From Oscillatoria sp. FACHB-1407 (GTDB taxonomy: Bacteria > Cyanobacteriota > Cyanobacteriia > Elainellales > Elainellaceae): a stretch of DNA of 64,000 bases. Below, in pieces: positions 45,346 through 52,328 of the stretch; the first letter of the stretch is position 1; each line of letters opens with the position of its first letter. The notes beneath the pieces were generated by a model that ran no database searches, was not told where the DNA came from, and saw only the letters and a program-made list of their open reading frames with translations. Where the stretch lies: the NCBI RefSeq assembly GCF_014697545.1, contig NZ_JACJSA010000021.1:1-64000 (forward strand), given 5' to 3'. Position numbers and translations under genes: made by a program.

Positions 45346-46356
45346 ATGACCATTCGAGTGGGAATCAACGGATTTGGCAGAATGGGACGGCTCACCCTGC
45401 GCGTTGCTTGGGGTTGGTCAGATCTGGAGTTTGTTCACATCAACGAAGTTAAAGGGGGAGCAAACGCCGCTGCCCATTTGCTGAAATTTGATTCGGTGCA
45501 TGGCCGTTGGGCACCAGAGGTTGAAGCCAAGGACGAACGAGTTTGGATTGACGATCAATCCCTCAGCTTTAGTGAATACGCTACACCGGGTGAGGTGCCC
45601 TGGGATGACCTGGGTGTTGATCTGGTGTTGGAGTGTTCTGGCAAGTTTAGAACTGCTGCGACCCTCGACCCCTATTTCAAGCGAGGGGTGCAAAAGGTGA
45701 TTGTGGCGGCTCCAGTCAAAGACGGTGCGCTCAACATTGTCATGGGCATTAATGACCACCTTTATGATCCACAGCAACATCACCTGTTAACCGCTGCATC
45801 CTGCACCACAAACTGTTTGGCTCCCGTGGTGAAGGTAATTCATGAGGGGTTGGGCATTCGTCATGGGGTGATCACCACGATTCATGACAACACCAATACG
45901 CAAACCATTGTGGATGCCCCCCATAAAGATTTGCGCCGAGCCAGAGCCACCAGTTTGTCACTGATTCCCACCACAACCGGGTCAGCCACAGCGATCGCCC
46001 TGATCTATCCAGAACTCAAGGGCAAGTTAAACGGCTTGGCCGTGCGAGTACCGTTGCTCAATGCCTCCCTCACCGACTGCGTGTTTGAAGTGGCACGACC
46101 CACGACTGTTGAAGAAGTTAACTCTCTCCTAAAATCCGCTGCACACGGGCCACTGAACGGCATTTTGGGTTATGAGGAACGTCCTCTAGTATCGATTGAT
46201 TACAAAGATGACCCCCGTTCCTCCATCATCGATGCCCTTTCTACGATGGTGGTCGATGAGACGCAGGTCAAAATTCTCGCCTGGTATGACAACGAGTGGG
46301 GGTACGTCAACCGCATGGCAGAACTGGCACGCAAGGTAGCCCTCAGTTTGCAGTAA
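45346..46356 (+). CDS. ArsJ-associated glyceraldehyde-3-phosphate dehydrogenase
   Basis: A 336-residue GAPDH with [20 protein letters not shown] at the NAD-binding start, the catalytic cysteine in [12 protein letters not shown], and [16 protein letters not shown] near the end. The N-terminal part ([23 protein letters not shown]) is of the type found next to arsJ rather than glycolytic Gap. Such enzymes use arsenate in place of phosphate to give unstable 1-arseno-3-phosphoglycerate for export. arsJ follows 21 bp later. The ATG has a good GTAGGAG ribosome site. Confidence 0.92.
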
Positions 46357-46377: not shown

Positions 46378-47640
46378 ATGACCTCCACTACTGCCTCAAA
46401 TGCCAACCTCAAAAATTACAGTCTGGTAACGATCGCCTACTGGGGTTTCACACTCACCGATGGCGCACTGCGAATGCTGGTGCTGCTCTATTTCAACGAA
46501 ATTGGCTATAGCCCGTTGCAAATTGCCTTACTCTTCCTCTTTTATGAAGTGTTTGGAGTTGTTACCAACTTTTTGGGCGGGTGGATTGGCTCTCAACTGG
46601 GGCTAAAGCTGACACTCTATGCCGGAATTGGGTTACAGGTGTTTGCGCTGCTCATGCTGTCGTGGCTGAACCGGGAGTGGGCACAGGGAGTGGCGATCGC
46701 CTACGTGATGACAGCTCAAGCCTTTTCAGGAATTGCCAAAGACCTGACCAAGATGAGTTCCAAAAGCGCAATTCGCCTGGTAGTACCCCAAGATCAGCAG
46801 TCTTCCCTGTTTAAGTGGGTAGCAGTGCTGACGGGGTCTAAAAATGCTCTTAAAGGGGCTGGTTTCTTTATGGGAGCGGCTCTACTGGCAACGTTGGGCT
46901 TTGTCAATTCACTATGGGCAATGGCAGCAGGGCTATTTCTGGTGATGCTGACTGGGTTTTTCTTGCCAAAGGGCATGGGCAAGATCAAAGCGAAGGTCAA
47001 ATTCACACAGCTTTTCTCTAAAAGCTCTGAGATCAACATTCTTTCGGCAGCCCGATTCTTCCTGTTCGGCTCCAGGGATGTCTGGTTTGTCGTCGGGTTG
47101 CCTGTTTTCCTGCGGAGTGGGTTGGGCTGGTCATTCTTTGAGGCAGGGGGATTTTTAGCCTGTTGGGTGATTGGTTATGGGGTCGTGCAGTTTCTTGCGC
47201 CAATGTTGTTGAGTCAATTCAACGGAGGACAGGCTCCTAAAGCGAGTACGATTCAATTTTGGACATTTACCCTGACACTGGTACCTGCGGCGATCGCCAT
47301 TGCGCTTCAATCTGGGCTACCCGCCAATCAGGTGATTGTCGTTGGCTTAGCGGTGTTTGGGGTTGTGTTTGCCTTCAACTCTGCGGTTCACTCCTATCTG
47401 GTGCTGGCTTTTACCGACGATGACAAAGTTGCTCTGAATGTTGGCTTCTACTACATGGCAAACTCCGGCGGACGACTCATCGGCACGGTGCTCTCTGGGT
47501 TGGTCTATCAACTCACCGGACTGGTTGGCTGTTTATGGGTGTCTACGCTGTTTGTGCTAGCCGCAGGGGTAATTTCGCTGAAATTGCCCAATCCTCAACC
47601 GACTAAGGCGATCGCCTGGAAATCAGGGGATGGAGATTAG
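46378..47640 (+). CDS. arsJ: Organoarsenical efflux permease ArsJ (MFS)
   Basis: A 420-residue major-facilitator protein with about twelve helices. The N-terminus (KNYSLVTIAYWGFTLTDGALRMLVLLYFNEIGYSP) and FSGIAKDLTKMSSKSAIR are typical of ArsJ. It exports 1-arseno-3-phosphoglycerate made by the partner GAPDH; outside, the product breaks down to arsenate, so the pair acts as an arsenate pump. Tight coupling to GAPDH (21 bp) supports the call. A 231-bp gap with heptamer repeats separates it from acr3. Confidence 0.92.
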   Translation: MTSTTASNANLKNYSLVTIAYWGFTLTDGALRMLVLLYFNEIGYSPLQIALLFLFYEVFGVVTNFLGGWIGSQLGLKLTLYAGIGLQVFALLMLSWLNREWAQGVAIAYVMTAQAFSGIAKDLTKMSSKSAIRLVVPQDQQSSLFKWVAVLTGSKNALKGAGFFMGAALLATLGFVNSLWAMAAGLFLVMLTGFFLPKGMGKIKAKVKFTQLFSKSSEINILSAARFFLFGSRDVWFVVGLPVFLRSGLGWSFFEAGGFLACWVIGYGVVQFLAPMLLSQFNGGQAPKASTIQFWTFTLTLVPAAIAIALQSGLPANQVIVVGLAVFGVVFAFNSAVHSYLVLAFTDDDKVALNVGFYYMANSGGRLIGTVLSGLVYQLTGLVGCLWVSTLFVLAAGVISLKLPNPQPTKAIAWKSGDGD

Positions 47641-47871
47641 AAGCGGATGAAGGATAAAAGATAAAACCTATCGCATCCTGACCTCCTAAGGATTGTGAAT
47701 TTAATAAATTTGCAAACTGTACGGGCGGGTTTAGCAGACCTATCTGTACCCTGTTATAGATTTGACAGCAAACCCCGCCCCTACCCAATACCGAACTTAT
47801 TTAATTTCCATTCCTAAGCACTCGATCCCTCTGATCCCTCAGCCTTCATCCTTTTGCTTCATTCCCTTCAT

Positions 47872-49008
47872 ATGGACTCTTCAACGGTCAAAGCTGGCAA
47901 TCGTCTCAGTTTTTTTGAGCGGTATCTGACCCTCTGGGTCTTCCTCTGCATCATCACCGGAATCCTATTGGGACGGTTGTTTCCTCAGGTGGCGATCGCT
48001 CTCGATGCGATGAGTGTGTATCAGATTTCCATCCCGATCGCTATCTGTCTGTTTTTCATGATGTACCCCATCATGGTCAAAATTGATTTTTCCCAGGCAG
48101 CACAAGCGATTCGCACTCCCAAACCCGTGCTTTTGACTCTGGTGGTGAACTGGTTAATCAAGCCGTTCACGATGGTGGTATTTGCTCAGTTTTTTCTGGG
48201 TTGGTTATTTCGCCCTTTGATTGCCGGAACTGAAATGATTCGTGGCACCGAAGTTTCGTTAGCCAACTCTTACATTGCCGGAACAATTTTGTTAGGCATT
48301 GCACCCTGTACTGCCATGGTCTTGATGTGGGGATATCTCTCCTACGGCAATCAGGGGCATACGCTGGTCATGGTAGCTGTGAATTCTCTGGCGATGTTAT
48401 TTTTGTACGCCCCATTAGGGCGATGGCTGTTAGCTGCGAATGATCTGGCAGTTCCCTGGCAAACGATCGCCCTTTCGGTGTTGATTTATGTTGGTCTGCC
48501 ACTTGTTGCGGGAATGTATTCTCGTTACTGGATTTTGACTCACAAAGGACGAGATTGGTTTGAGCAAACGTTTCTCAAATACTTAACACCTGTGGCGATC
48601 GTAGCTCTCTTAGTAACACTCATTCTTTTGTTTGCATTTAAAGGTGAATTAATTGTCAACAATCCACTCCACATCCTGTTAATCGCCGCTCCCTTATTTC
48701 TGCAAACCAACTTTATTTTCTTGATTTCCTATGTTGCAGCCCTAAAACTGAAATTATCTTACGAAGATGCGGCTCCTGCTGCTTTAATTGGTGCGAGTAA
48801 TCACTTTGAAGTGGCGATCGCCACTGCGGTTGTTCTATTTGGTTTAAATTCCGGTGCTGCTCTAGCAACTGTTGTTGGTGTGCTCATCGAAGTTCCCGTT
48901 ATGCTCATGCTGGTTGAAGTATGTAAACGCACTGCCTTTTGGTTTCCTCGTGAACCTGCGAAAGCGACATTGCCCGACCCTCGCTGTATTCGCCCTTTAG
49001 GACCGTGA
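47872..49008 (+). CDS. acr3: Arsenite efflux permease Acr3
   Basis: A 378-residue membrane protein of the ACR3 family with ten helices. Landmarks are [60 protein letters not shown] (with the key cysteine) and [20 protein letters not shown]. It pumps arsenite out using the proton gradient. I start at the [12 protein letters not shown]; a TTG six codons earlier is open but lies in a heptamer tract. arsC follows after 40 bp. Confidence 0.95.
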
Positions 49009-49048
49009 CTCAACCTTTAGAAATGGCACTACTGCGTTATCTTTGGTT

Positions 49049-49456
49049 ATGCAACACGTCATGTTTGTCTGTAAACATAACTCTCGCCGTTCCCAAATGG
49101 CAGAAGGATTTGCTCGTGCACTGGGCGATGGAAGGATATCAGTAACCAGTTCTGGTCTAGAGACAAGTGCTGTTGATCCGTTGGCAGTTCAAGTGATGTC
49201 AGAAGTCGGCATTGATATCAGTCATCAAACCTCAAAACCCCTCAGTGACTTTAATCCAGGTGATTACAATGCGGTTATTTCACTGTGTGGGTGTGGTGTT
49301 CATCTACCAGTCGAATGGGTCTTGCGGAGTGTATTTGAAGATTGGCAATTGGATGATCCCTGTGGACAACCGATCGAAACATTTCGACGGATTCGAGATG
49401 AAATCAGAGAACAGGTGCTCCAGTTGTTAGAAAAGTTAAGCCATTGCTCCAGATAA
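49049..49456 (+). CDS. arsC: Arsenate reductase, LMW-phosphatase type (Synechocystis ArsC-like)
   Basis: A 135-residue protein with the phosphatase-type loop CKHNSRRS (CX5RS). C8, C80 and C82 (VISLCGCGV) match the three essential cysteines of Synechocystis ArsC, an unusual enzyme that has a phosphatase fold but works with glutathione and glutaredoxin. It turns arsenate into arsenite for Acr3. TTG 49043 is an alternative start two codons earlier. It is tightly linked to acr3 and arsH (21 bp to the latter). Confidence 0.93.
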   Translation: MQHVMFVCKHNSRRSQMAEGFARALGDGRISVTSSGLETSAVDPLAVQVMSEVGIDISHQTSKPLSDFNPGDYNAVISLCGCGVHLPVEWVLRSVFEDWQLDDPCGQPIETFRRIRDEIREQVLQLLEKLSHCSR

Positions 49457-49477: not shown

Positions 49478-50131
49478 ATGAGTGACCACAAACCCAGAAT
49501 CCTATTCCTCTACGGTTCCCTGAGAGAGCGATCTTACAGTCGGCTCCTGGCAGAAGAAGCCGCTCGCATTATTACCGGATTTGGTGCAGAGGTGCAGTTC
49601 TTTAATCCTCATGGCTTGCCGTTGCATGGCAGTGAGAGCGATCGCCATCCCAAAGTTCAGGAATTGCTGGAACTGGTGCAGTGGTCAGAGGGGCAGGTGT
49701 GGTCAAGTCCAGAGATGCACGGCAACATCAGCGGCTTAATGAAGATGCAGATTGACTGGATTCCGTTGAGTATCGGAGCGGTGCGACCCACCCAGGGCAA
49801 GACGTTAGCGGTGATGCAAGTCAGCGGTGGCTCCCAGTCCTTCAATGCGGTCAACACGATGCGCGTTCTCGGTCGCTGGATGCGGATGTTTACCATTCCC
49901 AATCAATCATCTGTTGCCAAAGCCTATGAGCAATTTAACGACGACGGCACGATGAAAGACTCGCCCTACCGCGATCGCGTCATTGACGTGATGGAAGAAC
50001 TCTACAAATTTACGCTGTTGCTGCGGCATCAGGTTGATTACCTCACCGATCGCTACAGTGAACGCAAAGAAAAAGGTATCCCCGATCCCATGAATAACCG
50101 TGTCAACGGGGTCAATCTCACACAAATGTAA
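49478..50131 (+). CDS. arsH: ArsH, NADPH-FMN organoarsenical oxidase
   Basis: A 217-residue flavodoxin-like protein. The FMN phosphate loop [18 protein letters not shown] and the segments [21 protein letters not shown] and [22 protein letters not shown] are typical of ArsH. It oxidises trivalent methyl- and aryl-arsenicals to the less toxic pentavalent form, and can also reduce quinones and metals. It is in an operon with arsC upstream and the transglutaminase-like gene 19 bp downstream. Confidence 0.95.
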
Positions 50132-50150
50132 TTCACCTGGAGGCTCTACG

Positions 50151-50771
50151 ATGCATCCCATCGACGTTTTACCCAATGCCATGATGCAGCAAGGTCTGGT
50201 ATCCGAACAGTTCCTCAAGCAAGGTATCACGACTTTTCAAGCCGCATGTCATTGGACAAAAGCCTTACCCTATGGGTCAAATTCTAATTCCGAAGACTCG
50301 TTGATCTTATTTGAGGAGGGGCATGGAACCTGCACGACTAAACACGGTGCGATCGCCCGTCTTGCTCAGGAACTCAACCTCCCGGTTTACAAAAATCTGG
50401 GCTTCTATCGTCTCAACGATGAGGTTGTGACTGGGGTCAATGCTCTGTTGCAACCCTATGGACTGAACTTCATTCCCCAAATTCACTGTTTTTTAGAATA
50501 CGAGCACTACCGAGTTGACTTGACCGAAGGCAACTGCAACGGCAAGAACAAAACCATTGAGGACTATGACTTCGTGGTACGAGTCACACCCGACATTACC
50601 CACGACGAAGAACGACGATATTACCTGGATTACTTGCAGCGATATGATGCGATCGCCCCAGAACTGTTGGAGATCAGTGAAACCACGCTCCTGGAAATCC
50701 TTGATGCCTGCAATCGCCAGGTTAAGTATCAGTGCTCGTTGATGGCAAGCCAACTCGTAACTCTCAGCTAA
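50151..50771 (+). CDS. Transglutaminase-fold protein of unknown role in the ars block
   Basis: A 206-residue protein that I cannot assign to a named ars family. It shows the transglutaminase-like triad layout: C61 in EEGHGTCTTKHGAIARLAQE followed by a helix and LNLPVY, H112 in PQIHCFLEYEHY, and D123 in RVDLTEGN. The C-terminus is helical and acidic (THDEERRYYLDYLQRYDAIAPELL). The ATG at 50151 has a good GGAGG site; earlier in-frame starts overlap arsH. With 19 bp spacing it should be co-transcribed with arsH, which makes an arsenic-linked hydrolase or transferase role plausible but unproven. Confidence 0.75.
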   Translation: MHPIDVLPNAMMQQGLVSEQFLKQGITTFQAACHWTKALPYGSNSNSEDSLILFEEGHGTCTTKHGAIARLAQELNLPVYKNLGFYRLNDEVVTGVNALLQPYGLNFIPQIHCFLEYEHYRVDLTEGNCNGKNKTIEDYDFVVRVTPDITHDEERRYYLDYLQRYDAIAPELLEISETTLLEILDACNRQVKYQCSLMASQLVTLS

Positions 50772-51362: not shown

Positions 51363-51755
51363 ATGCCAACCATGCCAGTTCAGCCAATGCCAGTTCAGCC
51401 ACCCACACTTGACCAGGCAGTCGAGCAGCCAAAACAGGGATGCTGTAGGGCGATCGCTTCTACAAGCCTCTCCGAAGCACAAGCTCAAAAATATGCTGAA
51501 TGGTTTAAGGTGCTAGCAGACCCCACTCGTTTACGAATTCTCAACCTGCTAGCGCAAAATAAGGAACCTTTGTGCGTCTGCGATATTGTGGATCAGTTTG
51601 ATCTGGGACAACCTACCATTTCTCATCACCTCAAGTTGTTGCGAAACACCTGCTTCGTCAAAACTGAGCGACGAGCTAACTTCATTTATTACAGCATCAA
51701 TCACGAGTGCATTCCTGCGCTCCCCCAAGCGGCTCAGCAGATTATGGGCATCTAA
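51363..51755 (+). CDS. arsR: ArsR/SmtB-family arsenic-responsive repressor
   Basis: A 130-residue winged-helix regulator: ADPTRLRILNLLAQ, LGQPTISHHLKLLRNTCFVKTERRANFIYYSINHE. The arsenite-binding cysteines are seen at C71 and C73 (EPLCVCDIVDQF), with an extra pair C27-C28 in the N-terminal tail. It would repress its own gene and the ars operon until As(III) binds. The start has a small internal duplication (MPVQP twice). arsI lies 117 bp downstream behind a palindrome. Confidence 0.93.
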   Translation: MPTMPVQPMPVQPPTLDQAVEQPKQGCCRAIASTSLSEAQAQKYAEWFKVLADPTRLRILNLLAQNKEPLCVCDIVDQFDLGQPTISHHLKLLRNTCFVKTERRANFIYYSINHECIPALPQAAQQIMGI

Positions 51756-51872: not shown

Positions 51873-52328
51873 ATGACTACATTGAAGACCCACGTCGCAC
51901 TCAGAGTTGCCAATCTGGACAAGTCCATCGCCTTTTATCAGGCAATGTTTGGAGTGTCTCCGGTAAAGCATAAAGTTGACTATGCCAAGTTTGATCTGGA
52001 GAACCCTGCTCTCAACCTGACATTGAATACAGCCGAGACAATCCAACCGCAGGGAACACTCTCTCACCTGGGCATTCAGGTAGGCAGCACTGAAGACGTA
52101 CAGGCGGCGATCGCCCGTTTTGCGAAGGCAGGTCTGAATCTATTTGAAGAGAAGAACACCGACTGTTGTTATGCCCTGCAAGACAAAGTTTGGGTGACAG
52201 ACCCCGACGGCAACCGTTGGGAGGTCTTTGTTGTCAAAGTAAGCGACACAGCCCCGGAAGAAACGATTAGTTTGAATCCATCCCAGATGTCTGGTCAGCC
52301 TCAAGGGGTCAAATCCTGCTGCGCTTAG
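51873..52328 (+). CDS. arsI: ArsI, organoarsenical C-As lyase
   Basis: A 151-residue vicinal-oxygen-chelate (glyoxalase-fold) dioxygenase. The iron ligands would be H7, H65 and E117 (HVALRVANL, SHLGIQV, GNRWEVFVV). The vicinal cysteines that bind trivalent organoarsenicals are C98-C99 in NTDCCYALQDKVWVTDPDG. ArsI cleaves the carbon-arsenic bond of methyl- or aryl-As(III). The C-terminus ends in a further Cys pair (SCCA). A GGAGA ribosome site precedes the ATG. CadI is the nearest alternative. Confidence 0.9.
   Translation: MTTLKTHVALRVANLDKSIAFYQAMFGVSPVKHKVDYAKFDLENPALNLTLNTAETIQPQGTLSHLGIQVGSTEDVQAAIARFAKAGLNLFEEKNTDCCYALQDKVWVTDPDGNRWEVFVVKVSDTAPEETISLNPSQMSGQPQGVKSCCA

Follow-up and report, generated by a model that had tools for sequence, protein, structure and literature searches.

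The gene that follows arsH in the arsenic block of the window (the whole stretch of 64,000 nucleotides that was analysed) encodes a transglutaminase-like protein, hereafter TGL, which by its genomic context is a C-P lyase accessory gene: PhnJ is present in 16 of 16 TGL genomes of one cyanobacterial sample and in 7 of 8 of a second, and C-P lyase core genes lie nearby in 6 of 24. The protein is probably a variant within a known superfamily, and we tentatively propose that it is a transglutaminase-like Cys-His-Asp enzyme acting where phosphonate (C-P lyase) metabolism meets the detoxification of organoarsenicals.

The TGL gene and its arsenic neighbours

The source genome amounts to 8.1 Mb across 66 contigs. 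Between positions 45346 and 52328 of the forward strand, every gene of the ars block except TGL is named by NCBIfam models. The features used below are as follows.

45346..46356, + strand: ArsJ-associated GAPDH (NF033735, 578 bits)
46378..47640, + strand: arsJ, MFS organoarsenical efflux (NF033734, 582 bits)
47854..49008, + strand: acr3, arsenite efflux (TIGR00832, 421 bits)
49043..49456, + strand: arsC, glutathione/glutaredoxin type (TIGR02689, 214 bits)
49478..50131, + strand: arsH (TIGR02690, 376 bits)
50139..50143, + strand: GGAGG, likely TGL ribosome-binding site (from the sequence)
50151..50771, + strand: TGL, 206-aa transglutaminase-like Cys-His-Asp protein (translation from ATG, homologues, alignments, model, structural neighbours)
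50331..50333, + strand: TGC codon of C61, putative nucleophile, residue 1 of helix 61-74 (invariant in 25 rows; model secondary structure)
50484..50486, + strand: CAC codon of H112, within strand 108-117 (invariant in 25 rows; model secondary structure)
50517..50519, + strand: GAC codon of D123, directly past strand 120-122 (invariant in 25 rows; model)
50532..50549, + strand: NCNGKN codons (residues 128-133), conserved loop with C129 and K132, beside D123 (alignment)
51363..51755, + strand: ArsR/SmtB-family regulator, 591 bp 3' of TGL (NF033788, 96 bits, cut-off 55)
51873..52328, + strand: ArsI/CadI-family VOC protein (NF041414, 178 bits)

The gap between the arsH stop (50131) and the TGL ATG is 19 bp, and since the next ars gene lies 591 bp further on, TGL is the apparent last gene of acr3-arsC-arsH-TGL. 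The first-pass annotation had placed the gene 19 bp past arsH in a block of known arsenic genes, and the gene, the spacing and the NCBIfam names of the neighbours all agree with this description. TGL is a real gene rather than a chance open reading frame, because it is matched at 63-74% identity over near-full length in 15 other genomes of a 388-genome class sample and its C61, H112 and D123 are invariant. A promoter/terminator scan gave 3 promoter matches (against a mean of 8.4 in shuffles) and no terminator-like site directly 3' of TGL; no signal peptide is visible by eye, and a search for a second copy in the same genome returned none at E up to 10.

A probable transglutaminase-like fold with invariant Cys, His and Asp

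TGL has no match among the NCBIfam models, the ars models included, at E up to 1, so the earlier statement that it fits no named ars family holds. In Pfam its only sub-threshold match is HI_0552 (PF10786); at 12.4 bits (E 0.12) this falls short of the cut-off of 25, and membership is rejected. Membership of Transglut_core (PF01841) is likewise rejected, as no member of the TGL family scores over the curated cut-off: 4 of 25 members match it, all below cut-off and at best with E 0.066, and the TGL of the window gives no match at E up to 1. Searching solved structures by sequence, with the window TGL and with a 17-row profile, returned nothing at E up to 10.

An AlphaFold2 model built from the 17-row alignment (pLDDT 87.3, pTM 0.84) places C61 at the start of helix 61-74, H112 in strand 108-117 and D123 right after strand 120-122; a Cys opening a helix, a His in a strand and an Asp past the next strand is the layout of the transglutaminase-like superfamily, so that the order of the three residues and their predicted secondary-structure setting are the same in both. 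The best structural neighbours of the model are largely members of this superfamily, namely the isopeptidase PeiW (Z 7.5), arylamine N-acetyltransferases (up to Z 6.6), TglA (5.6) and LapG (5.3), with factor XIII at Z about 4.5. These fold matches are middling, with VIA Z at most 7.5 (no row at Z 8) and a best Foldseek E of 0.013. Transglut_core PF01841, arylamine N-acetyltransferases, PeiW, LapG and vasohibins form one superfamily, to which TglA and factor XIII also belong. TGL is thus likely, on the strength of the model, a member of the transglutaminase-like superfamily at the level of fold and not of PF01841. The transglutaminase fold claimed in the first-pass annotation therefore stands as likely (pLDDT 87, with the neighbour scores above), and in the profile check it had suggested no Pfam match exceeded its cut-off.

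The Cys-His-Asp layout itself is borne out: the residues are where they were claimed to be, and C61, H112 and D123 occur in this order in 25 of 25 aligned TGL sequences (24 genomes, one of which supplies two contig-end pieces, fragments included). Further invariant columns among these rows are T62, C113, N128, C129, N130 and G131; K132 and N133, which complete the NCNGKN motif, are nearly invariant, and C33, C187 and C195 are conserved in at least 90% of rows. The NCNGKN loop after D123 is modelled with a confidence of only about pLDDT 72 and sets TGL apart within the transglutaminase-like superfamily, as does the Cys-His spacing, which is 51 residues in TGL and 37 in the compact Transglut_core protein of its own genome (L004). 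That genome holds six Transglut_core matches, all at places other than TGL. The TGL profile aligns only weakly with five of these own-genome proteins (probability 13%, E 0.0021; C61 and D123 fall on their counterparts, H112 does not), and weakly again with two of them (probability 1.1%, E 0.047).

Plasmid searches found one distant relative, on plasmid pAT1 of Aureibacter tunicatorum (L026:7971-8543), with 28% identity over 152 columns and E 1.2e-20 to the profile. It keeps C61, H112, C113 and D123 and lacks the NCNGKN loop; by annotation its neighbours include no ars or phn genes, and a heavy-metal P-type ATPase lies 3 kb away. Viral contigs gave no relative with either TGL query A1 or the Aureibacter protein, and phages searched with the latter gave no match.

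Homologues in cyanobacteria and their linkage to arsenic genes

TGL was found in 16 of 388 genomes of a class sample, searched with the single protein, and in 8 of 388 genomes of a sample from the order of Nostoc CHAB 5715 (G392), searched with a profile and scoring 8 first-look candidates per genome; weak relatives may be missed because of the single-protein query and the limit of 8 candidates. Together these make 24 TGL genomes, each with a different TGL place, and the named homologue contigs belong to Nostoc, Oculatellaceae and Phormidesmis, the Nostoc contig being among the 8 of the order sample. Within family f13 the gene is present in 13 of 63 genomes, and no further homologues appeared among these 63 or among 36 genomes of the window's own order. 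The stretch fetched around each homologue extends at most about 10 kb to either side of TGL, and less at contig ends. One homologue (G641, L118:7455-8048) carries an internal TAG near its C-terminus, and homology resumes past it.

An ars gene lies within the fetched stretch in 21 of the 24 genomes. The commonest arrangement, seen in 11 of 24, has arsP adjoining TGL, either as arsR-arsP-TGL (L027, L028, L031, L034, L038, L039, L040, L116) or as arsP-TGL with a cut contig or a different arsR (L033, L036, L008), and arsH follows 3' of TGL in 7 of these 11 loci; it does not do so in L027, L031 or L039, and in L028 the contig stops before any arsH. Three loci read arsR-arsI-TGL with arsI adjacent (L032, L035, L037), while acr3, arsJ and/or arsC are the partners in L118, L120, L121 and the window. 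L117 and L007 have arsR and arsI nearby, and in L029 a TGL-arsH pair ends a phn operon. Either arsP or arsI is present in the fetched stretch of 20 of the 21 ars-linked genomes, the exception being L029. In family f13, TGL adjoins arsP in 9 of 19 ArsP genomes (60 searched), and arsH is more widely spread than TGL (32 of 60 over cut-off against 13 of 63).

These partners point to organic arsenic. ArsP, ArsI and ArsH handle trivalent organoarsenicals; they are operon partners of TGL, and none of them is transglutaminase-like. What we call ArsP is a member of the Pfam ArsP_1 permease family (PF03773, 138 bits), and its substrate is taken from operon context because its NCBIfam matches (E up to 1e-10) are all below cut-off, the best being a Cu/Zn efflux model. 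The regulator 5' of arsP or arsI has two neighbouring cysteines close to its C-terminus (ECCTRN in the seven inspected), which we take to resemble that of the methylarsenite-selective ArsR of Shewanella and presumably goes with selectivity for organic arsenicals. A DSP/PTP-like phosphatase also recurs in many ars loci, often beside arsH or TGL and also where TGL is absent (L118:6956-7417, L007:188-613, L032, L035, L066, L073, L075, L078, L089, L092, L093).

Linkage to phosphonate genes

The remaining 3 of 24 genomes carry TGL in phn loci with no ars gene in the fetched stretch: phnFCDE followed by TGL (L030), phnHIJKLM-TGL-2H phosphoesterase-phnDCEE in Nodularia spumigena, apparently strain CCY9414 (L119), and phnHIJKL-TGL split between contigs (L122/L123). 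The first-pass annotation had proposed TGL as a possible new member of the arsenic island and had named homologues unlinked to ars genes as evidence against this. Both kinds of locus were found in the neighbourhood analysis, so that membership is upheld by the linkage in 21 of 24 genomes, and the part that finds no support is a purely arsenic gene, given these three loci and the presence of PhnJ in 16 of 16 and 7 of 8 TGL genomes.

Six of the 24 genomes (L029, L039, L116, L117, L119, L122/L123) have C-P lyase core genes inside the fetched stretch. Counting any phn gene, PhnD-like binding proteins included, raises this to 11 of 24 by adding L027, L028, L030, L118 and L120, a count that excludes weak generic-family matches such as a 31% phnF match in L036 and 'phnC' matches to other ABC proteins. 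In L029 and L116 phn and ars modules stand side by side, for example as phnHIJKLM-HD-TGL-arsH. The known C-P lyase accessory proteins (PhnO N-acetyltransferase, PhnP/2H phosphoesterase, Phn-HD) are unrelated to TGL in sequence. TGL sits among such genes in L119, L029 and L117, and it is present in only 16 of 37 PhnJ genomes. The gene 3' of TGL in the Nodularia cluster (L119:8470-9093) is related to DUF1045 below cut-off; we assume it to be probably a 2H phosphoesterase and a possible stand-in for PhnP. ArsN1/PhnO-type N-acetyltransferases show that one enzyme class can detoxify both amino-phosphonates and arsinothricin. These GNAT proteins lack a Cys-His-Asp triad and showed no kinship to TGL in any search run; a GNAT in L122 matches PhnO (E 4.7e-8) and ArsN1 (E 1.7e-6) weakly, below both cut-offs.

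In the CCY9414 phn cluster table, two hypothetical proteins, nsp7500 and nsp7490, are entered between phnM and phnD (PMC3610870). The phn cluster of Nodularia UHCC 0039 has two extra genes whose expression rises significantly on methylphosphonate, although the C-P lyase genes respond more strikingly (PMC5955973); by analogy with strain CCY9414 these two genes would include TGL.

Most phn loci have no arsenic genes beside them, which makes TGL the exceptional element: among 58 further PhnJ loci (taken with at most 10 kb to either side, less at contig ends) organoarsenical genes are close by in 1 only. These loci comprise 35 of 37 class hits (G012 and G287 had already been examined) and 23 of 42 order hits (of the others, 4 had already been examined, 3 repeated class hits and 12 were left out). 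The single case (L212, genome G141) has no TGL and carries an arsR-arsI-arsP cassette between phnCDE and phnF-phnHIJKLM. A second gene common to ars and phn modules encodes a class I SAM methyltransferase, UbiE-like and about 212 aa long, which occurs in ars clusters (L034, L089, and as a partial match in L074) and also beside C-P lyase clusters (G000, G099, G200), L117 having both modules (examples at L034:5854-6489, L184:19132-19743, L192 and L187). The phnI genes of the window's genome (G000:C18:11205-12518, equal to L184:8203-9516) and of G207 (L190) match in two pieces within one frame, with an extra middle stretch.

Co-occurrence of TGL with PhnJ

PhnJ (PF06007) is present in 37 of 388 class-sample genomes and in 16 of the 16 with TGL (hypergeometric P 1.4e-18), in 41 of 388 order-sample genomes over cut-off and in 7 of the 8 with TGL (6.7e-7), and within genera of family f13 in 13 of 13 TGL genomes (exact stratified P 8.5e-7), all figures that treat genomes as draws and are inflated because the genomes are related, kinship being partly handled by the within-genus test and the TGL tree. 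The base rates of the two samples are not independent since the samples partly overlap (G129/G503, G143/G534 and G347/G561 are the same places and sizes). For the second sample the presence of PhnJ in TGL genomes had been noted as a prediction before testing. With both samples pooled, 23 of 24 TGL genomes have C-P lyase, the exception being Nostoc CHAB 5715, which has neither PhnJ nor PhnI in a fragmented assembly with a TGL contig of 3.2 kb. In the window's genome phnJ lies on another contig (C18).

The tie to PhnJ is stronger than the tie to arsP, because the latter weakens once only PhnJ genomes are considered. Among 60 genomes of family f13, arsP occurs in 10 of 13 TGL genomes and in 9 of 47 without TGL, while among the 23 PhnJ genomes alone the figures are 10 of 13 and 4 of 10 (P 0.09). 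PhnJ is itself found in 14 of 19 arsP genomes against 9 of 41 without arsP, and in 16 of 32 arsH genomes against 7 of 28 without arsH, so that arsH has a much looser tie to PhnJ than TGL has.

Physical proximity does not seem to be the cause. TGL and phnJ lie 2.6-34 kb apart on one contig in ten genomes, and in three others (G328, G162 and G710) they share a contig at distances of 2.7, 5.4 and 4.0 Mb, at least 2.7 Mb even if the contigs are circular, so hitch-hiking explains the tie poorly. On the best TGL tree, where 5 of 22 inner branches have strong support, phn-linkage needs 6 changes. The simplest reading is functional dependence rather than one shared transfer. Conversely, 21 of the 37 PhnJ genomes of the class sample have no TGL, which means that it is not needed for C-P lyase and is an accessory rather than a core part; TGL as a member of the core set (PhnG-PhnP) is rejected on this count.

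Proposed function and alternatives

Our proposal that TGL serves where phosphonate metabolism and organoarsenical detoxification meet falls somewhat short of an even chance, and it is built on the invariant triad, on loci that are either of organoarsenical ars type or phn, and on the 23 of 24 C-P-lyase genomes, even where the loci are distant. A thioester-type intermediate is usual in the transglutaminase-like superfamily, and by analogy with its other enzymes C61 would form such a covalent intermediate. TGL might then hydrolyse or transfer an amide-type group of some organoarsenical or of its phosphonate analogue, a substrate that would enter by the phosphonate route or be met only by cells with C-P lyase, and the NCNGKN loop past D123, specific to the phn/ars proteins, is likely to be the substrate-binding loop. 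Induction would be by arsenicals through ArsR in ars operons and by phosphonate in phn operons. Against an amide-type group counts that methylphosphonate, which Nodularia uses well, has no amide bond.

A reason for an organic-arsenic gene to matter only in C-P lyase cells is offered by a marine study, in which phnD rises about two-fold with dimethylarsinic acid and phosphonate transport or C-P lyase is suggested to meet methylarsenicals in marine bacteria (PMC6426599). One could go further and suppose that cyanobacteria with C-P lyase possess an organoarsenical branch, in which methylarsonate or a related arsonate comes in by the phosphonate route and engages the pathway, and TGL is the dedicated enzyme for a product or by-product, common to phn and ars operons; this we regard as doubtful.

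TGL could instead act on proteins, cleaving, deamidating or protecting a protein of C-P lyase or of phosphonate uptake once methylarsenicals come in by the phosphonate route, the trigger being either import of methylarsonate by PhnCDE or poisoning of the PhnJ cysteines and Fe-S cluster by trivalent arsenicals. Such a switch or guard would account for an ars-operon gene that requires C-P lyase in its genome, and the best structural neighbours include peptidases, isopeptidases and protein transglutaminases, but the rise of Nodularia's two extra phn-cluster genes together with the C-P lyase genes on methylphosphonate (PMC5955973) is odd for an off-switch, and we consider this explanation unlikely.

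A thiol protein in place of an acyl enzyme, in which C61 with C113, C129 or another conserved Cys binds trivalent methylarsenicals or reduces pentavalent ones ahead of ArsP or ArsI, would fit the conservation of C61, C113 and C129 in 25 of 25 rows (with C33, C187 and C195 at 90% or above) and the arsP or arsI found in 20 of the 21 ars-linked genomes. A mere binding site has no need of H112 and D123, which are equally invariant, and the Aureibacter relative keeps C61, H112, C113 and D123 without the NCNGKN loop or annotated ars neighbours. Since this explanation also leaves the PhnJ tie unaccounted for, it appears rather improbable. To about the same degree we doubt the arsenic-only reading suggested in the first-pass annotation, an enzyme that acts on glutathione-arsenic conjugates and has no phosphonate role: the 21 of 24 loci in ars clusters speak for it, but the three phn-only loci and the near-strict co-occurrence with PhnJ have already weakened it. 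Least probable of all is an association that is only historical, in which the same gene transfers carried the cassettes for TGL, phn and ars. For it speak the patchy distribution of cyanobacterial C-P lyase clusters, which have been regarded as transferred (PMC5955973), and the closeness of TGL and phnJ in ten genomes. Against it, the two are megabases apart on one contig in three genomes, phn-linkage shifts several times over the tree, TGL and PhnJ go together even within genera, and no variation is seen in the active-site residues.

Significance

As far as our literature searches go, the joint ars and phn association of TGL is unreported: no paper was found that joins transglutaminase to ars operons or arsenic resistance, or to C-P lyase or phosphonate, none was found on methylarsonate together with methylphosphonate uptake, and among the papers listed by broader searches, judged by title and the start of the abstract, none named a TGL-like protein. 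Organic arsenic compounds and phosphonates are chemical analogues, and both are important in waters poor in phosphate: arsenic is methylated there by phytoplankton, and methylphosphonate is a source of methane for some cyanobacteria, which release the gas (PMC6426599, PMC5955973). The pattern of TGL hints at an unrecognised link between the handling of organic arsenic and the use of phosphonates. TGL offers a definite starting point for work on a hypothetical gene of Nodularia's phn cluster, and it would serve as a genetic handle on whether the organoarsenical and C-P lyase pathways meet.
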